From: Reyranella aquatilis
GTDB lineage: Bacteria > Pseudomonadota > Alphaproteobacteria > Reyranellales > Reyranellaceae
Length of the DNA: 64,000 nt
NCBI RefSeq assembly: GCF_020880995.1
Contig: NZ_JAJISD010000003.1
Location: 372,001 to 436,000 of the forward strand
Reading direction: 5' to 3'
The translations under genes were made by a program, and so were the position numbers. Under the pieces are notes generated by a model, which was not told where the DNA came from, ran no database searches, and was given only the letters and a program-made list of their open reading frames with translations. Of this stretch, positions 10,946 to 18,020 are shown one piece after another (positions within the stretch are counted from its first letter, which is position 1; each line of letters begins with the position of its first letter).

Positions 10946-11021
10946 CTAGGCGGGGCCTCCCAACGACCCCGGGCCGGGCCGTTTCGTCCATTTGCGGGCA
11001 GGCATCGATCGGAGAGGGATC

Positions 11022-12512
11022 ATGAACGCCGAGATGGGAAAATCGAAGGATCGCACCGGAGTTCCGGGCCTCGACGATATTCTCCTGGGCGGGCTGGCAT
11101 CGGGGCGCGTCTTCCTGCTCGAAGGCAGTCCGGGGACGGGCAAGACCACGGTGGCGCTGCGCTTTCTTGTCGAGGGCGCGCGGGCGGGCCAGCGCGGGCT
11201 TTACGTCACGTTGTCGGAGACGGAGGCGGAGCTCAGGTTCACGGCCGAGGCACATGGCTGGTCGCTCGACGACAAGACCGAGGTCTTCGAAGTCGTGCCG
11301 CCGGAGAGTCTGCTCGATGCCGACCAGCAGCAGAGCCTGCTCTATTCATCCGATCTGGAACTCGGCGAGACGGTGAAGCTGATCTTCCAGGCCGTCGAGC
11401 GCAGCAGGGCTCAACGCGTGGTGCTCGATTCGCTGTCGGAGATCCGCCTGCTGGCCCAAAGCTCGCTGCGGTACCGGCGGCAGATCCTTGCGCTCAAGCA
11501 CTATTTCGCCCGGCACGGCGCGACTGTGCTGATGCTCGACGACCTGACGACCGACGTGCACGACAAGACGGTTCACAGTGTCGCGCATGGCGTCATCCGG
11601 CTCGAGGAGCTGACGCCGGGTTATGGCGCCGAGCGGCGTCGCCTTCGAATCGTCAAGTATCGGGCGCAGGGATTCCGCGGCGGCTACCATGATTTCGTCA
11701 TCCGGGCGGATGGCGCACGGGTGTTCCCGCGACTGGTCGCGGCCGAATATCGTCGGGATTTCGAGCGTGCGCGGATCGGGACCGGCATTCCGGCGCTCGA
11801 CAGCCTTCTGGGGGGCGGCATCGAGCAGGGGTCGAGCACCCTGCTGGTCGGGCCAGCCGGGTCGGGCAAGACGACGCTGGCCTGGCAGTTCGTGGCCGAG
11901 GCCGTCCGCAAGGGTGACAAGGCCGCGATGTTCGTCTTCGACGAGGAAATCGGCCTGCTGTTCGACAGAGCCCGACCGCTCGGCTTCGACTTCGCCGCGA
12001 TGCAGGCGACGGGCCAGCTCACGATCACGCAACTCGACGCCGCGGAGCTCTCGCCGGGCGAGTTCGCCCACGACGTGCGACGGGCCGCCGACGATCCGGC
12101 CGTCAAGACGATCCTGATCGACAGTCTCAACGGCTATCAGGCGGCGATGCCCGAGGAGAACTCGCTCATTCTCCATATGCACGAGCTCATTCAGTACCTG
12201 AACCGCACCGGAGTCTCGACATTCCTCACTGTGGCCCAACAGGGCATCGTCGGTGACATGAGATCGCCGCTGGACCTCACATACCTCGCCGATGCCGTCA
12301 TCCTGCTACGCTACTTCGAGGCCGACGGCGCCGTCAGGCGGGCCTTGTCCGTCATCAAGAAGCGGGGTGGAAAGCATGAGGAGACGATTCGGGAATTCTG
12401 GATCGACGGCGGTCTTCATATTGGCGAGCCCCTGACGGCCTTCCGCGGCGTCCTGCGCGGCACGCCGTCCCTCCCCGGCGATCGCGCACCCGTTCGACCG
12501 ACGTCCCGCTGA
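11022..12512 (+). CDS. KaiC-like tandem RecA-fold ATPase
   Basis: A 496-residue, two-domain protein of the circadian-clock KaiC family. Each half has a Walker A motif: GSPGTGKTT (35-43) and GPAGSGKTT (277-285). After domain I the KaiC Glu-Glu pair is reduced to SE (TLSETEAEL); domain II keeps EE (FVFDEEIGLL). By hand alignment the KaiC autophosphorylation pair Ser431/Thr432 corresponds to Thr420/Tyr421 (LDLTYLADAVILL). The start is fixed by GGAGAGGG ahead of ATG 11022; an upstream in-frame start at 10992 would split this site. The stop overlaps the kinase start (TGATG), so the two are co-translated. No kaiA or kaiB is present in the window. Probably a signalling ATPase rather than a clock. 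Confidence 0.92.
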   Translation: MNAEMGKSKDRTGVPGLDDILLGGLASGRVFLLEGSPGTGKTTVALRFLVEGARAGQRGLYVTLSETEAELRFTAEAHGWSLDDKTEVFEVVPPESLLDADQQQSLLYSSDLELGETVKLIFQAVERSRAQRVVLDSLSEIRLLAQSSLRYRRQILALKHYFARHGATVLMLDDLTTDVHDKTVHSVAHGVIRLEELTPGYGAERRRLRIVKYRAQGFRGGYHDFVIRADGARVFPRLVAAEYRRDFERARIGTGIPALDSLLGGGIEQGSSTLLVGPAGSGKTTLAWQFVAEAVRKGDKAAMFVFDEEIGLLFDRARPLGFDFAAMQATGQLTITQLDAAELSPGEFAHDVRRAADDPAVKTILIDSLNGYQAAMPEENSLILHMHELIQYLNRTGVSTFLTVAQQGIVGDMRSPLDLTYLADAVILLRYFEADGAVRRALSVIKKRGGKHEETIREFWIDGGLHIGEPLTAFRGVLRGTPSLPGDRAPVRPTSR

Positions 12513-14557
12513 TGACGAGCGAGTGGCCCGATCGATCCCTGAGGGCGCTCGTCCTGGCGCCGCGGGGGCGCGACGCCGCGGTCGCGTGCGCGCTCATCCG
12601 CCAGACGGGCGTGGAGTGCGTCCCCTGTTCCAGTCTTTCGGCGGTGGTCGATGTCCTCGACGACGATGTCGCCTTCCTGCTGATCACCGAGGAGGCGATC
12701 CGCGGCGCCGATCTCAGGCCGCTGTCCGACTGGCTCGGGAAACAACCGCCCTGGTCGGATATGCCCTTCCTCCTGGTGACCGATCACGGCGGTGGCCCGG
12801 AGCGCAATCCGATTGCATCGCGCTGGCTGGAAACGCTGGGGAACGTCTCGTTCATCGAGCGCCCCTTCCATCCGACGACTCTGCTCAGCGTGGCGCGCGC
12901 CGCGGTCAAGGGAAGACGGCGACAGCACGATACGCGCCGCCTGCTCGCCAACCTCTGGGAGAGCGACCAGCGCCTGCGCACGGCCCTGCATGCGGGCCGG
13001 CTGGCCGCCTGGGAATTCGACTTCCCGAGCTCGCGCCTGACGGTCGCCGCGGAGGGCAAGACGATCCTCGGCCTTCCCCTCATGGAGGATGTCGGACTCG
13101 ACTGGCTGATGCGGGGGATGCTGGTCGATGACCACGCAAGCGTACGCAAGGCGCTCGGCCATAGCGTGGCTTCCGGTCGGGACTTCGCTGCCGATGTCCG
13201 GTTCCGCCGGCCCGACGACAGGATCGTCTGGCTCGATGTGCGCGCGCGGCTCGTCCGCGACGCGCGCGGCGCCCCGCGGCGCTTCGTGGGCCTCGCTTCG
13301 GACATCACGACGCGCAAACTGGCCGAGGAGACGCTTCAGGACCTGAACGAGCAGCTCGAGAAACGTGTCCAGGAACGGACGGCGCAGCTGCGCAGCGCGC
13401 ACGACGAGCTGGTGGCGCAGATCGCCGAGCGCGAGCGCACCGAGGCGCAGCTCCGCCAGATGCAGAAGCTGGAATCGATCGGCCAGCTGACGGGTGGTGT
13501 CGCGCACGATTTCAACAACCTGCTGACGGCGGTGATCGGCAACCTCGAACTCCTGCGCAAGCGGGTGCCCTCCCATCCGGCAAGCGACCGTCTGATCGAC
13601 GGCGCCATGCAGGGTGCGCAGCGGGGCGCGGCGCTGACGCAGCGGCTGCTGGCCTTTGCGCGGCACCAGGCGCTCGATGTCCGCCCGGTCGACCTCGCTG
13701 GCCTCATCCGTGGCATGGACGATCTGCTGCGTCGGTCGCTCGGACCGTCGGTCACCATGCTGCAGGATCTTCCTCGCGGAATACCTCCGGCCCATGTCGA
13801 TGCCAACCAGCTCGAACTCGCCCTGCTCAATCTCGTGGTCAACAGTCGCGATGCCATGCCGGAGGGCGGCACCGTGACGCTCTCGCTCGATGTGGCCGAA
13901 ACCGGCGCGGCGCGGGATCTCGCAGCCGGGCGCTATGTGAGAGTCATCGTGGCGGATACTGGCTCTGGCATGGACGCCGAGACGCTGCGCAAGGCGATCG
14001 AACCCTTCTTCTCGACCAAGGACGTCGGCAAGGGAACGGGACTCGGCCTGTCGATGATCCACGGGCTGGCGCAGCAGCTCAAGGGGACCCTGCGGCTTTA
14101 CAGCACGCCGGGCCGCGGGACGCGGGCCGAGCTGTGGCTGCCGGTTGCTGAAGGCGCGGCCGAAGTGCTGCCTCAACCGGGTGCGGACGCCGCATCGGAA
14201 GCCAGGAAGGCCGCCCGACTCCTGTTCGTGGACGACGATTTCCTGATCAGCCTCAGCACAACATCGCTGCTGGAGGACCTCGGCCATACTGTCGTGACCG
14301 CCTCTTCCGGCGCGGAGGCTCTCGAAGTGCTGCGTACCGGCGAGCCGATCGACATGATGATCACCGACTACGCGATGCCGGGGATGACCGGCCTGCAACT
14401 GGCCGAGGAAGCACGCGCGCTCCGCCCGGGTCTGCCGATCCTGCTCGCCACGGGCTATGCCGATCTGCCCACGAAGAGCCGCTTCGAGCTGCCCCGGCTC
14501 AACAAGCCCTATCAGCAGATGCAGCTCGCCGAGCAAATCCAGGGCCTGCTCGGCTGA
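12512..14557 (+). CDS. Hybrid sensor histidine kinase (PAS-HisKA-HATPase-REC)
   Basis: A 681-residue cytoplasmic kinase with no membrane segment. Residues 1-135 look like a degenerate receiver (LRALVLAPRG...FIERPFHPTTLL). A PAS domain follows (about 155-270, ending FVGLASDITTRKLAE), then a coiled coil (270-318). The HisKA box is GGVAHDFNNLL with His332. HATPase motifs are N (LLNLVVNSRDAMP), G1 (DTGSGM) and G2 (GKGTGLGLSM). A C-terminal receiver has the acidic pair in FVDDDF and phospho-acceptor Asp619 (ITDYAMPGMTG). It resembles FixL-type hybrid kinases. Its first codon overlaps the stop of the KaiC-like gene, so the two probably form one signalling module. No output response regulator is adjacent. 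Confidence 0.93.
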   Translation: MTSEWPDRSLRALVLAPRGRDAAVACALIRQTGVECVPCSSLSAVVDVLDDDVAFLLITEEAIRGADLRPLSDWLGKQPPWSDMPFLLVTDHGGGPERNPIASRWLETLGNVSFIERPFHPTTLLSVARAAVKGRRRQHDTRRLLANLWESDQRLRTALHAGRLAAWEFDFPSSRLTVAAEGKTILGLPLMEDVGLDWLMRGMLVDDHASVRKALGHSVASGRDFAADVRFRRPDDRIVWLDVRARLVRDARGAPRRFVGLASDITTRKLAEETLQDLNEQLEKRVQERTAQLRSAHDELVAQIAERERTEAQLRQMQKLESIGQLTGGVAHDFNNLLTAVIGNLELLRKRVPSHPASDRLIDGAMQGAQRGAALTQRLLAFARHQALDVRPVDLAGLIRGMDDLLRRSLGPSVTMLQDLPRGIPPAHVDANQLELALLNLVVNSRDAMPEGGTVTLSLDVAETGAARDLAAGRYVRVIVADTGSGMDAETLRKAIEPFFSTKDVGKGTGLGLSMIHGLAQQLKGTLRLYSTPGRGTRAELWLPVAEGAAEVLPQPGADAASEARKAARLLFVDDDFLISLSTTSLLEDLGHTVVTASSGAEALEVLRTGEPIDMMITDYAMPGMTGLQLAEEARALRPGLPILLATGYADLPTKSRFELPRLNKPYQQMQLAEQIQGLLG

Positions 14558-14563
14558 CGGCAC

Positions 14564-14953
14564 TCAGGCGAGGAACGGCATCACCTGCCGCACGCGCGGG
14601 TCGCGCAGCCACAAGCCGCCCCATACCAGGATGCCGAGATAGAGGCCGAACAGCGTATGGCTGAACAACGGACTGTGGAGTTTCAGGTGGGTGGCGATCG
14701 CGCCGCCGAACAGGCCGGTCAACACGACCGCGCCCAGCAGGGCGGTGCGGGGCCACGCGTAAAGGGCGGTGCAGACCAGCGTCACGACGCCGAGGAAACG
14801 GGCAAAGGCCTCGGTCGCGGGGAGTCCCATTTCCTTCGACGTTGTGATTACGATCTCAAGCGGTACCAGCTTGATCCCCCCATCGAAGAGCAGGAACAGG
14901 ACGGCAAGGCCGCTCATGACGCGGCCCGTCCAGAGGGCCGGAGTCGAGACCAT
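14564..14953 (-). CDS. DoxX-like small membrane protein
   Basis: 129 residues with four predicted membrane helices (about 12-30, 50-66, 70-88, 98-116) and the DoxX-like LFDGGIKL stretch after helix one. DoxX-family proteins are poorly understood membrane proteins linked to redox stress. The gene lies two bases after the VOC gene, so both are probably read from the ECF42-type promoter at 15399-15425. It converges with the kinase gene, with six bases between the stops. A role in the sigma-factor regulon is inferred from position only. Confidence 0.82.
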   Translation of the reverse strand: MVSTPALWTGRVMSGLAVLFLLFDGGIKLVPLEIVITTSKEMGLPATEAFARFLGVVTLVCTALYAWPRTALLGAVVLTGLFGGAIATHLKLHSPLFSHTLFGLYLGILVWGGLWLRDPRVRQVMPFLA

Positions 14954-14955
14954 GG

Positions 14956-15366
14956 TCAGGCGGCCTTGATCGGTGCGCCCATCGTCCACATCACTCCGAA
15001 CGGATCGACCAGCTGGCCGTAGCGGTCGCCCCAGAACATGTCCTGCACCGGCATCTTCACCGTGGCGCCGGCCTTTACCGCCTTGCCGAAAGCGGCATCG
15101 ACGTCCTCGACCTGGAGATGGAGCATGAAGCCGGCCGGCTTCTCCAGCGGCGCGCCATGCTCGGGAAAGGCATCGGCCAGCATCAGCGAACCGCCGTTGA
15201 TGACGAGATGGATGTGCATGTAGCGGCCCTTGTCGTCGGGCGGCATGCGCGCGACTTCCTCCGCGCCGAAAGCCGTGACGTAGAAGTCCGCGGCCTTGCC
15301 GGCATTGCTGACCGAGAGGTAGGGGCAGGGCCCGCCGAGGACGGGCGGCTGCTGGGGTGCATTCAT
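14956..15366 (-). CDS. VOC (glyoxalase/bleomycin-resistance fold) protein
   Basis: 136 residues. The sequence YLSVSNAGKAADFYVTAFGAEE at the start and DRYGQLVDPFGVMW near the end are the two half-site signatures of PhnB-like VOC proteins. These fold as paired beta-alpha-beta units and usually bind a metal or small hydrophobic ligand. The start at 15366 follows AAGGAGA at good spacing; the frame stays open 21 codons upstream but crosses the promoter. It is first in a two-gene unit with the DoxX protein, behind an ECF42-type promoter. VOC/PhnB genes are known neighbours of DGPF/ECF42 loci. The substrate cannot be told. Confidence 0.88.
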   Translation of the reverse strand: MNAPQQPPVLGGPCPYLSVSNAGKAADFYVTAFGAEEVARMPPDDKGRYMHIHLVINGGSLMLADAFPEHGAPLEKPAGFMLHLQVEDVDAAFGKAVKAGATVKMPVQDMFWGDRYGQLVDPFGVMWTMGAPIKAA

Positions 15367-15398
15367 GACGGTCTCCTTGGCTGATGTTGTGTTCGGAG

Positions 15399-15425
15399 GA
15401 CGACCGGCCTGCCCCGATGCCGACA
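15399..15425 (-). promoter_or_regulatory. ECF42-type promoter ahead of the VOC-DoxX genes
   Basis: Minus strand TGTCGG (15425-15420), 17 bases, then CGTC (15402-15399). It lies between the sigma gene and the VOC gene, 33 bases ahead of the VOC start. The same TGTCGG-N17-CGTC pattern precedes the DGPF gene. The ECF42 consensus I recall is TGTCGA with CG(A/T)C. Confidence 0.7.
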
Positions 15426-15444
15426 TCACCCGTCGCGATTTTCT

Positions 15445-16689
15445 TCAATTGGCGGACAGGCGGTCGAGATGCTGCCGTATGTGCGCGGCCTCGGCTGGCG
15501 TGTTGGCAAGGGCGATCGCCTGGCCGAATGCCTTGCGGGCTTCGTCCGGCCGCTCGAGCTGCTCGAGCAGCGCACCCTTCACGCCGTGGAAGTAGAAATA
15601 GCCCCGCAGCCGCTCGCCGAGCGGCTCGATCATGTCCAGCGCGGCCTGCGGCCCCTTGACCTTGGAGACCGCCACGGCGCGGTTGAGCGTCACCACCGGC
15701 GAGGGTTGGAGGCGTTCCAGATTGGCGTAGAGCAGGTCGATCTGGGCCCAGTCCGTGTCTTCGGCGTGCCGGGCCCGCGCATGCAGCGCGGCGATCGCCG
15801 CCTGGATCTGGTAGGGGCCGGGCCGGCGATGCCGCATGGCCTTGTCGATCAGGGCCAGCCCCTCGGCGATGCGCGGCTGGCTCCAAAGGCTGCGATCCTG
15901 GTCCTCCAGGAGGACAAGGTTGCCGTCTCGGTCGAACCGGGCCTCTGCCCGCGAACGCTGCAGCAACATGAGCGCCGTGAGGCCCATGATCTCGGGCTCG
16001 GCGGGGAACAGGCGCAGCAGCAGGCGCGCAAGCCAGATCGCTTCCTCGGCCAGCGGCGTGCGGGCCTCGGCCTCGCGACTGCTGCTGGACGAGTAGCCCT
16101 CGTTGAACAGCAGGTAGATCATCGCGGCGACGGCGGCGAGGCGCTCCGCCCGCTCGGGTGCACCCGGCGTCTCGAAGGGGACACCGGCAGCGCCGATGCG
16201 GGCCTTGGCGCGCGTAATGCGCTGCTCCATGGCGGCCTCGCCGACGAGGAACGCCTGCGCGATCCGTTTCACCGACAGGCCGCAGACGATGCGCAGCGCC
16301 AGGGCGATCTGCTGCGTGGCCGGCAGATCGGGATGGCAGCATACGAACAGCAGCCGGAGGATATCATCCTTGTAGTGTTCGCCGTCCAGCCGGTCGGCCA
16401 GTGATGCCTCGGCATCGTCGAGGTTCGAAAGCACCGTTTCGTCCGGCAGCTCGGTCATGCGCGACTGTCGGCGCACCTGATCCATTGCGGCGTTGCGGCC
16501 GACCAGGATCAGCCACGCGGCCGGATCGCGCGGCGGGCCGTTCTGCGGCCAGTTCTTCAGTGCCCGCAGGCAGGCCTCCTGGAAGGCTTCCTCGGCCGTA
16601 TCGAGATTCCGGAAGTAGCGGAGCAGCGCGCCCATCACCTGGGGTCGCGCCGCGCCGAGGACCGGATCGATCCAGCCGAGATCGTTCAT
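15445..16689 (-). CDS. ECF42-type RNA polymerase sigma factor with C-terminal TPR region
   Basis: 414 residues. Region 2 (about 14-80; AEEAFQEACLRAL, DPAAWLILVGRNAAMDQVRR) and region 4 (about 115-175; LPATQQIALALRI, EAAMEQRITRAKARI) are followed by a long helical C-terminal half of about 230 residues typical of ECF42 (SigJ/DUF6596) factors. That extension is thought to replace an anti-sigma factor; none is encoded here. The ATG overlaps the stop of the DGPF gene by four bases (ATGA), which is the hallmark ECF42 arrangement. Two matching promoters flank the gene, suggesting self-activation and control of the VOC-DoxX pair. Confidence 0.93.
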   Translation of the reverse strand: MNDLGWIDPVLGAARPQVMGALLRYFRNLDTAEEAFQEACLRALKNWPQNGPPRDPAAWLILVGRNAAMDQVRRQSRMTELPDETVLSNLDDAEASLADRLDGEHYKDDILRLLFVCCHPDLPATQQIALALRIVCGLSVKRIAQAFLVGEAAMEQRITRAKARIGAAGVPFETPGAPERAERLAAVAAMIYLLFNEGYSSSSSREAEARTPLAEEAIWLARLLLRLFPAEPEIMGLTALMLLQRSRAEARFDRDGNLVLLEDQDRSLWSQPRIAEGLALIDKAMRHRRPGPYQIQAAIAALHARARHAEDTDWAQIDLLYANLERLQPSPVVTLNRAVAVSKVKGPQAALDMIEPLGERLRGYFYFHGVKGALLEQLERPDEARKAFGQAIALANTPAEAAHIRQHLDRLSAN

Positions 16690-17087
16690 GCGGCTGGCTT
16701 CTTCGCGTGGCCCCGTTCGTCAGGCAACTGGCTGGGATGGAACTCGGCCACCGGTCGGATCTCGTAGCTGCCGGTGCCGGGATTGGCCTTTGCCAGCTCC
16801 TTGGCCGTGTGGATGGCTTCCTCCAGCGAGGCGCAGTCGATGACGTAGAAGCCGAGGAGCTGCTCCTTGGTCTCGGCGAAAGGCCCGTCGATCACCATCT
16901 CCTCGCGCCCTTTGCGCAGGGTCGTGGCGGCCGTGGTCGGCAGCAGCCGCGCCACGGGACCCAGCCGGCCCTGCCGGGCGAGCTTGTCGTTGACGGCATA
17001 GAGTCGCTGCATCGTCTGGTCGTGATGGTCCTTGGACCAGGCGCCGACGGCTTCCTCGGAATTGTAGCAAAGAATGGCGTAGAGCAT
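16686..17087 (-). CDS. YCII-related DGPF-domain protein
   Basis: 133 residues, beginning MLYAILCYNSEE and containing VIDGPFAETKEQLLGFYVID, the DGPF signature of YCII-related proteins. These small ferredoxin-like-fold proteins accompany ECF42 sigma genes and are usually among their targets; their molecular function is unknown. The C-terminus (about 115-133, basic and Ala-rich) is likely disordered. The stop overlaps the sigma gene start (ATGA), so the two are co-translated. The promoter at 17114-17140 lies 27 bases ahead of the ATG. Confidence 0.92.
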   Translation of the reverse strand: MLYAILCYNSEEAVGAWSKDHHDQTMQRLYAVNDKLARQGRLGPVARLLPTTAATTLRKGREEMVIDGPFAETKEQLLGFYVIDCASLEEAIHTAKELAKANPGTGSYEIRPVAEFHPSQLPDERGHAKKPAA

Positions 17088-17113
17088 GGGTCTCCGGTCC
17101 CTCTGTTACCCAG

Positions 17114-17140
17114 GACGAGCGAACGGGGCGCCTGCCGACA
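17114..17140 (-). promoter_or_regulatory. ECF42-type promoter ahead of the DGPF-sigma operon
   Basis: Minus strand TGTCGG (17140-17135), 17 bases, then CGTC (17117-17114), 27 bases from the start codon at 17087. The shared core TGTCGGCA-N15-CGTCCT also occurs at the second site (15399-15425), giving internal support from two copies. Confidence 0.7.
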
Positions 17141-17162
17141 GGTTCGCCCCAAAAATTGTCGC

Positions 17163-18020
17163 CTATTCGGCGTCGGACGAGACAGGATTCTCGAAGGGAA
17201 CGCCGGCTTTCAGAATGCGGTAACGCCCGTGCTGGATTTCCGCCCCGGCGACGATGCCGGTGCGGGCGCTGCCGCCATCGAGGCACAGGCGATCGCCCTC
17301 GAAGAGGTGCGTGTCGTCCATGCCGCTGATCGCCTTGTGCTTGTCGGGCGGCGTATGGCCATGGACCACCAGCGTGCCGCCGAACCCCTTCTTCCAGTCG
17401 AGGAAACCGTGGTTGATCCACGCCCAGCGCGCCTCGGTGAAGATCAGCCAGGGGCGGGCCAGGAACTCATCCTCCTCGGCGTGCGGGTCGAGGCCGCCGT
17501 GCACGAACACCGTGTTGCCCAGCCGCACGTGCGAGCGCATGCCCTGCAGCCGGTGCACCACTGCCTCGCCCAGGGCGTCGTGCAGCAGGCCCTGATCGGC
17601 ATGCGTCGCCGGACGGCCAGCGCGGGCCGCCATCTGATCGAGCAGGATGTGGCCGCCCATGCGCTTGGACAGCCACATCGTCTCGGCCTTGTGCGCGTGC
17701 GGCCCGCCGACGACGGTCAGCATCATCATGATCTCGTGGTTGCCCATCAGGCGGTCGACATGATCGACGCCGTGGGCCTCCTCGCTGCCGGCCCATTGTT
17801 CGAGTACGCCGATACTGTCGGGCCCTCGATTGATCATGTCGCCCAGGTAGATCAGCCGGCGCCGGCCCTCTGCCTCGCCTGCGAGCCTCGTGATCGTGGC
17901 CCGCAACGCCCCGAGCTCGGCGGCGCAGCCATGCACGTCGCCGATCGCGAACACTGTCTCGCCCTTCAGGTCGAAGGGCGCGGGCTTCCACTCGGAGATT
18001 TCGACGGGCAAGGCGCTCAT
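17163..18020 (-). CDS. Calcineurin-like metallophosphoesterase
   Basis: 285 residues of the serine/threonine protein phosphatase (PPP/diadenosine tetraphosphatase-like) superfamily. Metal ligands are visible in order: GDVHG (about 27-31), GDMINRGPDS (about 60-69), GNHE (about 93-96), VFVHGGLDPH (about 172-181) and VVHGHTPP near 220. These give the two-metal site for phosphomonoester hydrolysis; whether the substrate is a phosphoprotein or a nucleotide is not evident. No signal peptide, so it is cytoplasmic. It lies 17 bases after the mscS-like gene in the same direction and may share its transcript. Confidence 0.9.
   Translation of the reverse strand: MSALPVEISEWKPAPFDLKGETVFAIGDVHGCAAELGALRATITRLAGEAEGRRRLIYLGDMINRGPDSIGVLEQWAGSEEAHGVDHVDRLMGNHEIMMMLTVVGGPHAHKAETMWLSKRMGGHILLDQMAARAGRPATHADQGLLHDALGEAVVHRLQGMRSHVRLGNTVFVHGGLDPHAEEDEFLARPWLIFTEARWAWINHGFLDWKKGFGGTLVVHGHTPPDKHKAISGMDDTHLFEGDRLCLDGGSARTGIVAGAEIQHGRYRILKAGVPFENPVSSDAE

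Follow-up and report, generated by a model that had tools for sequence, protein, structure and literature searches.

The window analysed here, the whole stretch of 64,000 nucleotides from Reyranella aquatilis, carries on its minus strand a cluster of four genes that includes an ECF42-type sigma factor gene, together with two putative promoters, P1 and P2.

17112–17140, minus strand: P1, putative promoter of YCII-sigma (−35 TGTCGG at 17140–17135, 17-bp spacer, −10 CGTCCT at 17117–17112)
16686–17087, minus strand: YCII-related (DGPF) protein, 133 aa (Pfam PF03795, E 4.7e-21)
15445–16689, minus strand: ECF42-type sigma factor, 414 aa (PF04542, PF08281, and PF20239, above cut-off)
15397–15425, minus strand: putative promoter P2 of VOC-DoxX (−35 TGTCGG at 15425–15420, 17-bp spacer, −10 CGTCCT at 15402–15397)
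14956–15366, minus strand: VOC/glyoxalase-fold protein, 136 aa (PF00903, E 4.5e-17)
14564–14953, minus strand: DoxX_2 protein, 129 aa (PF13564, E 5.2e-15)

The stop codon of the YCII gene, whose product includes the residues DGPF, overlaps the start codon of the sigma gene, and the DoxX start codon lies 2 nt past the VOC stop, so that VOC and DoxX probably form one operon. The sigma protein has the ECF42 architecture, with regions 2 and 4 followed by a TPR-like C-terminal extension of about 200 residues, and its gene follows a YCII/DGPF gene, as expected of an ECF42 factor. DUF6596 (PF20239) was matched with an E value of 1.1e-33, TPR_1 and TPR_2 gave weak matches near residues 371–396 that fell below their cut-offs, and, among the 25 NCBIfam matches listed, only the ECF superfamily model TIGR02937 passed its cut-off. 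According to the excerpted text of PMC8999054, the ECF42 factors Sven_0747, Sven_4377, and Sven_7131 of Streptomyces venezuelae (work by Liu in 2018 and Wu in 2019) share the YCII neighbour and a C-terminal extension that is rich in TPRs and about 200 residues long; the extension was essential for activity in other members of the group, and a YCII protein may contribute to regulation. In line with an ECF42 assignment, no Pfam match to an anti-sigma family was found in the eight proteins encoded between 10992 and 18841, a scan that covers the Pfam-detectable types. Besides the cluster itself, the scan covered a metallophosphatase, a mechanosensitive channel, a hybrid histidine kinase with a PAS domain, and a protein that has two KaiC-type stretches. 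The gene for the last of these and the histidine kinase gene directly after it together occupy 10992–14557 and are convergent with the ECF42 cluster.

An earlier note on this DNA had placed the pattern TGTCGG-N17-CGTC at 17114–17140 and at 15399–15425, and both sites were confirmed exactly, on the minus strand. The site before YCII reads TGTCGGCAGGCGCCCCGTTCGCTCGTC and the site before VOC reads TGTCGGCATCGGGGCAGGCCGGTCGTC, each followed by CT. The longer identity claimed for them, TGTCGGCA together with CGTCCT, was present at both, and TGTCGGCA-N15-CGTCCT occurs just twice within the window, at P1 and P2. The CGTC element lies 26 nt from the YCII ATG (17087) at P1 and 32 nt from the VOC ATG (15366) at P2, and P2 begins about 20 nt past the sigma stop. 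By analogy with the mapped start of SMc01149 in Sinorhizobium meliloti, which lies 9 nt past CGTC (excerpts of PMC6180224), transcription is predicted to start at about 17105 from P1; a start at about 15390 is predicted for P2. No sigma-70-type promoter was found by a scan of 14300–17400, no terminator-like site was detected on the minus strand of the same interval (one was found on the plus strand), and the window had no matches in Rfam (at the gathering threshold) or in a search for tRNAs. The strict motif is expected 0.45 times by chance in the window, and two or more copies were reached in 9 of 100 dinucleotide shuffles, so that the window count is by itself weak evidence.

The genome (G000, with contigs C3, C5, and C27 cited below) contains 22 strict matches to TGTCGG-N17-CGTC, against 13 for the reversed pattern, and four matches to the extended form TGTCGG-N17-CGTCYT, against two. 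Four of the 22 strict sites are in promoter position before a plausible gene, namely YCII-sigma, VOC-DoxX, an AHSA1 gene on C27, and a YCII gene on C5. The other 18 are located inside a predicted frame (17 sites) or antisense within a second sigma gene on C3 (one site), and most strict matches in the genome are thus attributable to chance. Relaxed patterns were also counted: the loose form TGTCGR-N16..18-CGWC has 887 sites (reversed control, 171), so that only the tight form is informative, while TGTCGN-N17-CGTCCT has eight sites (control, one) and TGTCGR-N17-CGTYNT has 14 (control, four). Nine sites of the last type were examined and none was counted as a regulon member: seven lie in coding frames, one (L268) lies 61 nt before a frame that is transporter-like by reading, and one (L273) has no gene call.

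P1 and P2 could themselves be chance matches in GC-rich DNA, as the shuffled windows and the 18 misplaced genome sites might suggest, but this explanation is extremely improbable in view of their conservation in other genomes. For this comparison we used the best 80 of 512 loci with sigma relatives, and closer relatives are therefore over-represented. Each of these best 80 loci (80/80) has a YCII match no more than 350 nt before sigma. Of the best 80 of 512 loci, 73 carry the strict motif before YCII and 48 carry it no more than 250 nt past sigma. In 200 rounds of dinucleotide shuffling of the same stretches, the corresponding averages were 0.01 and 0.035 loci and no round exceeded one locus, and the reversed pattern gave 0 and 0 loci. 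When spacer lengths from 10 to 24 were compared, 17 gave the 73 and 48 loci and every other length at most three. The conserved position, these two frequencies, and the sharp peak at a 17-base spacer place P1 and P2 far above chance, and a chance origin was rejected on the evidence of the 80 loci (best 80 of 512).

Both P1 and P2 were kept in 19/19 of the loci L069–L087, and in the remaining 61 loci of the best 80 of 512, P1 was kept in 54 and P2 in 29. The ten closest relatives (L069–L078, from the best 80 of 512) have sigma proteins of 86–94% identity and carry the labels Reyranella, Rhodospirillaceae, Rhodospirillales, or Alphaproteobacteria. In their alignment, no run of six other than TGTCGG and CGTCCT stays invariant at the two sites, and the spacer varies in sequence with a constant length of 17; P2 shows two invariant runs of five besides, one of which is, by reading, the ribosome-binding region. 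The resulting clade profile is TGTCGG-N17-CGTC(C/T)T, with the final T present in 72/73 sites for P1 and 46/48 for P2. Among the best 80 of 512 loci, a strict P1 is missing in seven and a strict P2 in 32, and L089 and L116 are without any strict site. Near misses were noted by reading, with CGTT for CGTC in L115 and L120 and an 18-base spacer in L134.

We also analysed which genes follow the motif. VOC genes starting no more than 300 nt past sigma have it within 160 nt upstream in 28/28 cases, those on the opposite strand in 7/7, and those upstream of sigma on the same strand in 2/3, compared with only 1/10 of those further downstream. Similarly, the motif precedes six of the seven DoxX genes with a start no more than 300 nt past sigma, and one of the 21 located further downstream. 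As it lies before VOC and DoxX genes near sigma and before VOC genes on the opposite strand, and rarely before those further downstream, the motif marks the starts of transcription units. Both families recur after it, in differing arrangements, in other Alphaproteobacteria, and the proposal of the earlier note that the VOC and DoxX proteins are likely regulon members is well supported by these sequence comparisons. Pfam analysis of 50 genes behind strict sites identified 23 Glyoxalase, 15 AHSA1, seven DoxX_2, two YCII, two SnoaL_3, and one DUF899 proteins; these are 50 of 74 gene calls, the 24 omitted being near-duplicate Reyranella-type VOC genes, Neorhizobium genes, and doubtful or cut frames. 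Strict sites in L093, L097, and L142 had no gene call.

The short distance between the sigma stop and P2, and the lack of a terminator-like site on the minus strand of 14300–17400, indicate that VOC-DoxX may also be reached by read-through from the YCII-sigma operon. Taken to its limit, this would leave P1 as the only functional promoter and P2 as incidental, which is improbable given that P2 was kept in all 19 of the loci L069–L087 and in 29 of the other 61, and that the motif also precedes all seven VOC genes on the opposite strand. Since matching promoters are conserved in many relatives, the sigma factor very likely drives the VOC-DoxX pair.

The scan of the genome for the motif with 17-base spacing, a check suggested in the earlier note, recovered P1 and P2 at promoter positions but also returned two such sites outside the cluster.

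G000:C27:40042: AHSA1/SRPBCC gene with a conserved site (family match and strict motif)
G000:C5:164134: lone YCII gene with a site (family match and strict motif)

The strict motif was found in 20/21 AHSA1 orthologs of the genus with at least 70% identity (the gene of this genome included) and in 0/9 more distant AHSA1 relatives; in the genome of the single exception (L166, genome G023), no sigma gene of the clade was found. For the C5 YCII gene, 7/12 orthologs have the strict TGTCGG motif, 4/12 the TGTCGA form, and 1/12 neither, and its −10 element is CGTCGT, for which reason it was rated only a probable member. The description of the regulon as self-contained was thus wrong: the C27 AHSA1 gene, whose close orthologs keep the site with a single exception, very likely belongs to it, and the C5 YCII gene probably does too.

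More genes preceded by the motif were found in relatives. A gene that is hydrolase-like by reading has TGTCGG-N17-CGTCCT 35 nt upstream in three related genomes (L274, L275, and L276), and others, also named by reading, are AHSA1-like (L277), VOC-like (L278), and RibD/DHFR-like (L279 and L280). Among 18 distant YCII loci (L191–L208), one (L207) gave no match. The strict motif is present in five of the other 17, whose positions identify them as the YCII genes of sigma operons of the clade. In L202 and L204, two further genes of this kind, the strict site was missed, probably through a wrongly extrapolated gene start, and it is present in the same loci recorded as L226 and L225.

The relation between sigma factor and motif was examined across 41 genomes of the genus. 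A sigma gene of at least 76% identity, referred to as clade I, is present in 21 of them. The extended site TGTCGG-N17-CGTCYT occurs on average 4.95 times per genome with a clade-I sigma (n = 21) versus 1.40 times without (n = 20; Mann–Whitney p 7e-8, which ignores shared ancestry), whereas the reversed control gave 0.67 versus 0.65. A motif-bearing AHSA1 gene and a clade-I sigma gene are both present in 18 genomes and both absent in 18, with three genomes having the sigma gene only (G010, G038, and G040) and two having the AHSA1 gene only (Fisher p 1.1e-6, again ignoring shared ancestry). In these two, G007 and G034, clade-I sigma was not detected at a listed completeness of 73% and 89%, respectively. 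Wherever the upstream DNA of a clade-I locus of the genus was readable, the strict motif precedes YCII (20/20). It follows sigma in 18/20 of these loci, the exceptions being L226, with TGTCGA there, and L227, with no such site; a contig end truncates L228. The genus set and the 80 loci overlap, with identical promoter strings in both, and are therefore not independent.

The genome contains a second ECF42 gene (G000:C3:162442–161444), diverged, with 37% identity; together with its own YCII gene it spans 162870–161276 (in L024). In the 800 nt before this sigma gene, neither TGTCGG-N17-CGTC nor TGTCGA-N17-CGTC was found. The genus genomes contain 28 other ECF42 copies; the promoter check covered 10 of them, and in the 800 nt before sigma TGTCGA-N17-CGTC is present in eight of these 10 and TGTCGG in none. 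In L229 and L231–L237, these other ECF42 operons mostly show TGTCGATT...ACGTC with the same spacing. The TGTCGG motif thus follows clade-I ECF42, and not the second ECF42 clade with a TGTCGA-type element, across the 41 genomes. An ECF42 consensus of TGTCGA and CG(A/T)C, associated with the S. venezuelae factors, probably goes back to work by Liu in 2018. P1 and P2 fit the wider form TGTCG(A/G) and CG(A/T)C with 17-bp spacing, as do the S. meliloti promoters. The match to the ECF42 consensus drawn in the earlier note is to be taken with caution: clade I uses TGTCGG and CGTC(C/T)T, and TGTCGA itself was seen in other ECF42 operons of the genus.

These comparisons also bear on whether P1 and P2 are real promoters read by another sigma factor, either the second ECF42 on C3 or an ECF41-type factor with a CGTC −10 element. 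The C3 gene does exist, and the promoter listed for the ECF41 factor RpoE9 of S. meliloti combines TGTCACA with CGTC (PMC6180224, Table 1). However, the TGTCGA elements in eight of the 10 other ECF42 copies covered argue against such a reader, and 16 of the 20 genomes without clade-I sigma have another ECF42 gene, yet their mean of 1.40 extended sites compares with a control of 0.65. The C3 gene is further disfavoured by its lack of such sites upstream, and from these ECF42 comparisons recognition of P1 and P2 by a sigma factor other than that of clade I appears quite unlikely.

It is possible, although tentative, that ECF42 paralogs that coexist within one genus have acquired promoter codes insulated from each other, a few bases apart and with the same 17-bp spacing, TGTCGG...CGTC(C/T)T versus roughly TGTCGATTC...(A/G)ACGTC, and that the C5 YCII gene passed between paralog regulons after losing its own sigma. 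In L188 (G038:C21), an ortholog of this YCII gene adjoins another ECF42 gene (41% identity), which suggests that C5 YCII could be the remnant of a lost sigma operon. If so, ECF42 regulons would be modular sets of YCII, VOC, AHSA1, DoxX, SnoaL, and comparable genes, gained or lost via small promoter changes.

The closest described system is that of S. meliloti RpoE10, as presented in the excerpts of PMC6180224. There, too, a YCII gene (SMc01151) is followed by an ECF42 gene, and TGTCGG-N17-CGTC lies before YCII and before the targets. Overexpression of RpoE10 raised SMc01149-SMc01148, encoding a hydrophobic-ligand domain protein and a glyoxylase-like protein, and SMb20475-SMb20474; the motif was verified in the promoters listed for SMc01149 and SMb20475 (Table 1). 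The SMc01149 promoter and P1 have in common CCTGTCGGCAGGCG and CGTCCT. In contrast to S. meliloti, VOC-DoxX follows sigma here and AHSA1 is on another contig. The genomic context of Pseudomonas putida ECF-10 (ECF42) is said in the same excerpts to be similar to that of RpoE10, and its phenotypes, from work by Tettmann in 2014, concern stress and antibiotic sensitivity and biofilm (PMC6180224 and PMC8999054, both in excerpt). The word DoxX is absent from the main text of PMC6180224, and the available portions of PMC8103513, PMC10880074, PMC9205884, PMC7730460, PMC3616915, PMC11256431, and PMC11119718 contain nothing on DoxX or the motif. We found no paper pairing DoxX with ECF42 in a search of mostly non-subscription literature, and DoxX may be named in subscription papers. 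In the same literature, no paper was found that joins ECF42 with DGPF, or YCII with an ECF sigma factor and glyoxalase, and TGTCGA was found with an ECF sigma factor only in a TetR repressor context.

The S. meliloti data also affect the interpretation of P1. There, the mapped start of SMc01151 falls within the motif, and overexpressing RpoE10 brought no induction of the YCII-sigma operon (PMC6180224); for this reason, positive autoregulation via P1, which the earlier note had proposed, is only a prediction and runs ahead of the evidence. By the same precedent, the sigma factor might drive P2 and distant targets and not its own operon, P1 being weak, blocked, or condition-limited. We consider this unlikely, as P1 is the best conserved site of all, in 73 of the 80 loci and in every one of the 20 readable clade-I loci of the genus, two sets that overlap.

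Taken together, the analysis shows that the sites exist, that they are conserved, and that they tend to accompany clade-I sigma, and we infer that clade-I sigma recognises them directly. This sigma factor would, with high probability, direct RNA polymerase to TGTCGG-N17-CGTC(C/T)T at P1, P2, and the C27 AHSA1 gene, and probably at the C5 YCII gene. In the proposed mechanism, its activity would be set by the TPR/DUF6596 extension in answer to a signal, possibly via a partner protein. P1 may then let the sigma factor raise its own expression, and P2 may raise VOC-DoxX expression separately, so that the cell with active sigma would make the small fold proteins YCII, VOC, and AHSA1 together with the DoxX protein, plausibly as a response to small-molecule stress or for detoxification.

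The locus is a conserved ECF42 regulon of a known kind, usefully enlarged, and not a new kind of system: the sigma factor very likely drives the VOC-DoxX pair, probably its own operon, and, again very likely, one or more distant genes of the same genome. ECF42 factors are widespread, and targets are known for few of them in the literature surveyed. The observation of two sites thereby becomes a testable regulon for a whole clade, in which YCII, VOC, AHSA1, DoxX, SnoaL, and other genes share one promoter type; DoxX is added as a recurrent member of ECF42 regulons, and ECF42 targets are placed outside the sigma cluster. Finally, the two similar promoter codes within one genus offer a natural pair for work on sigma specificity.
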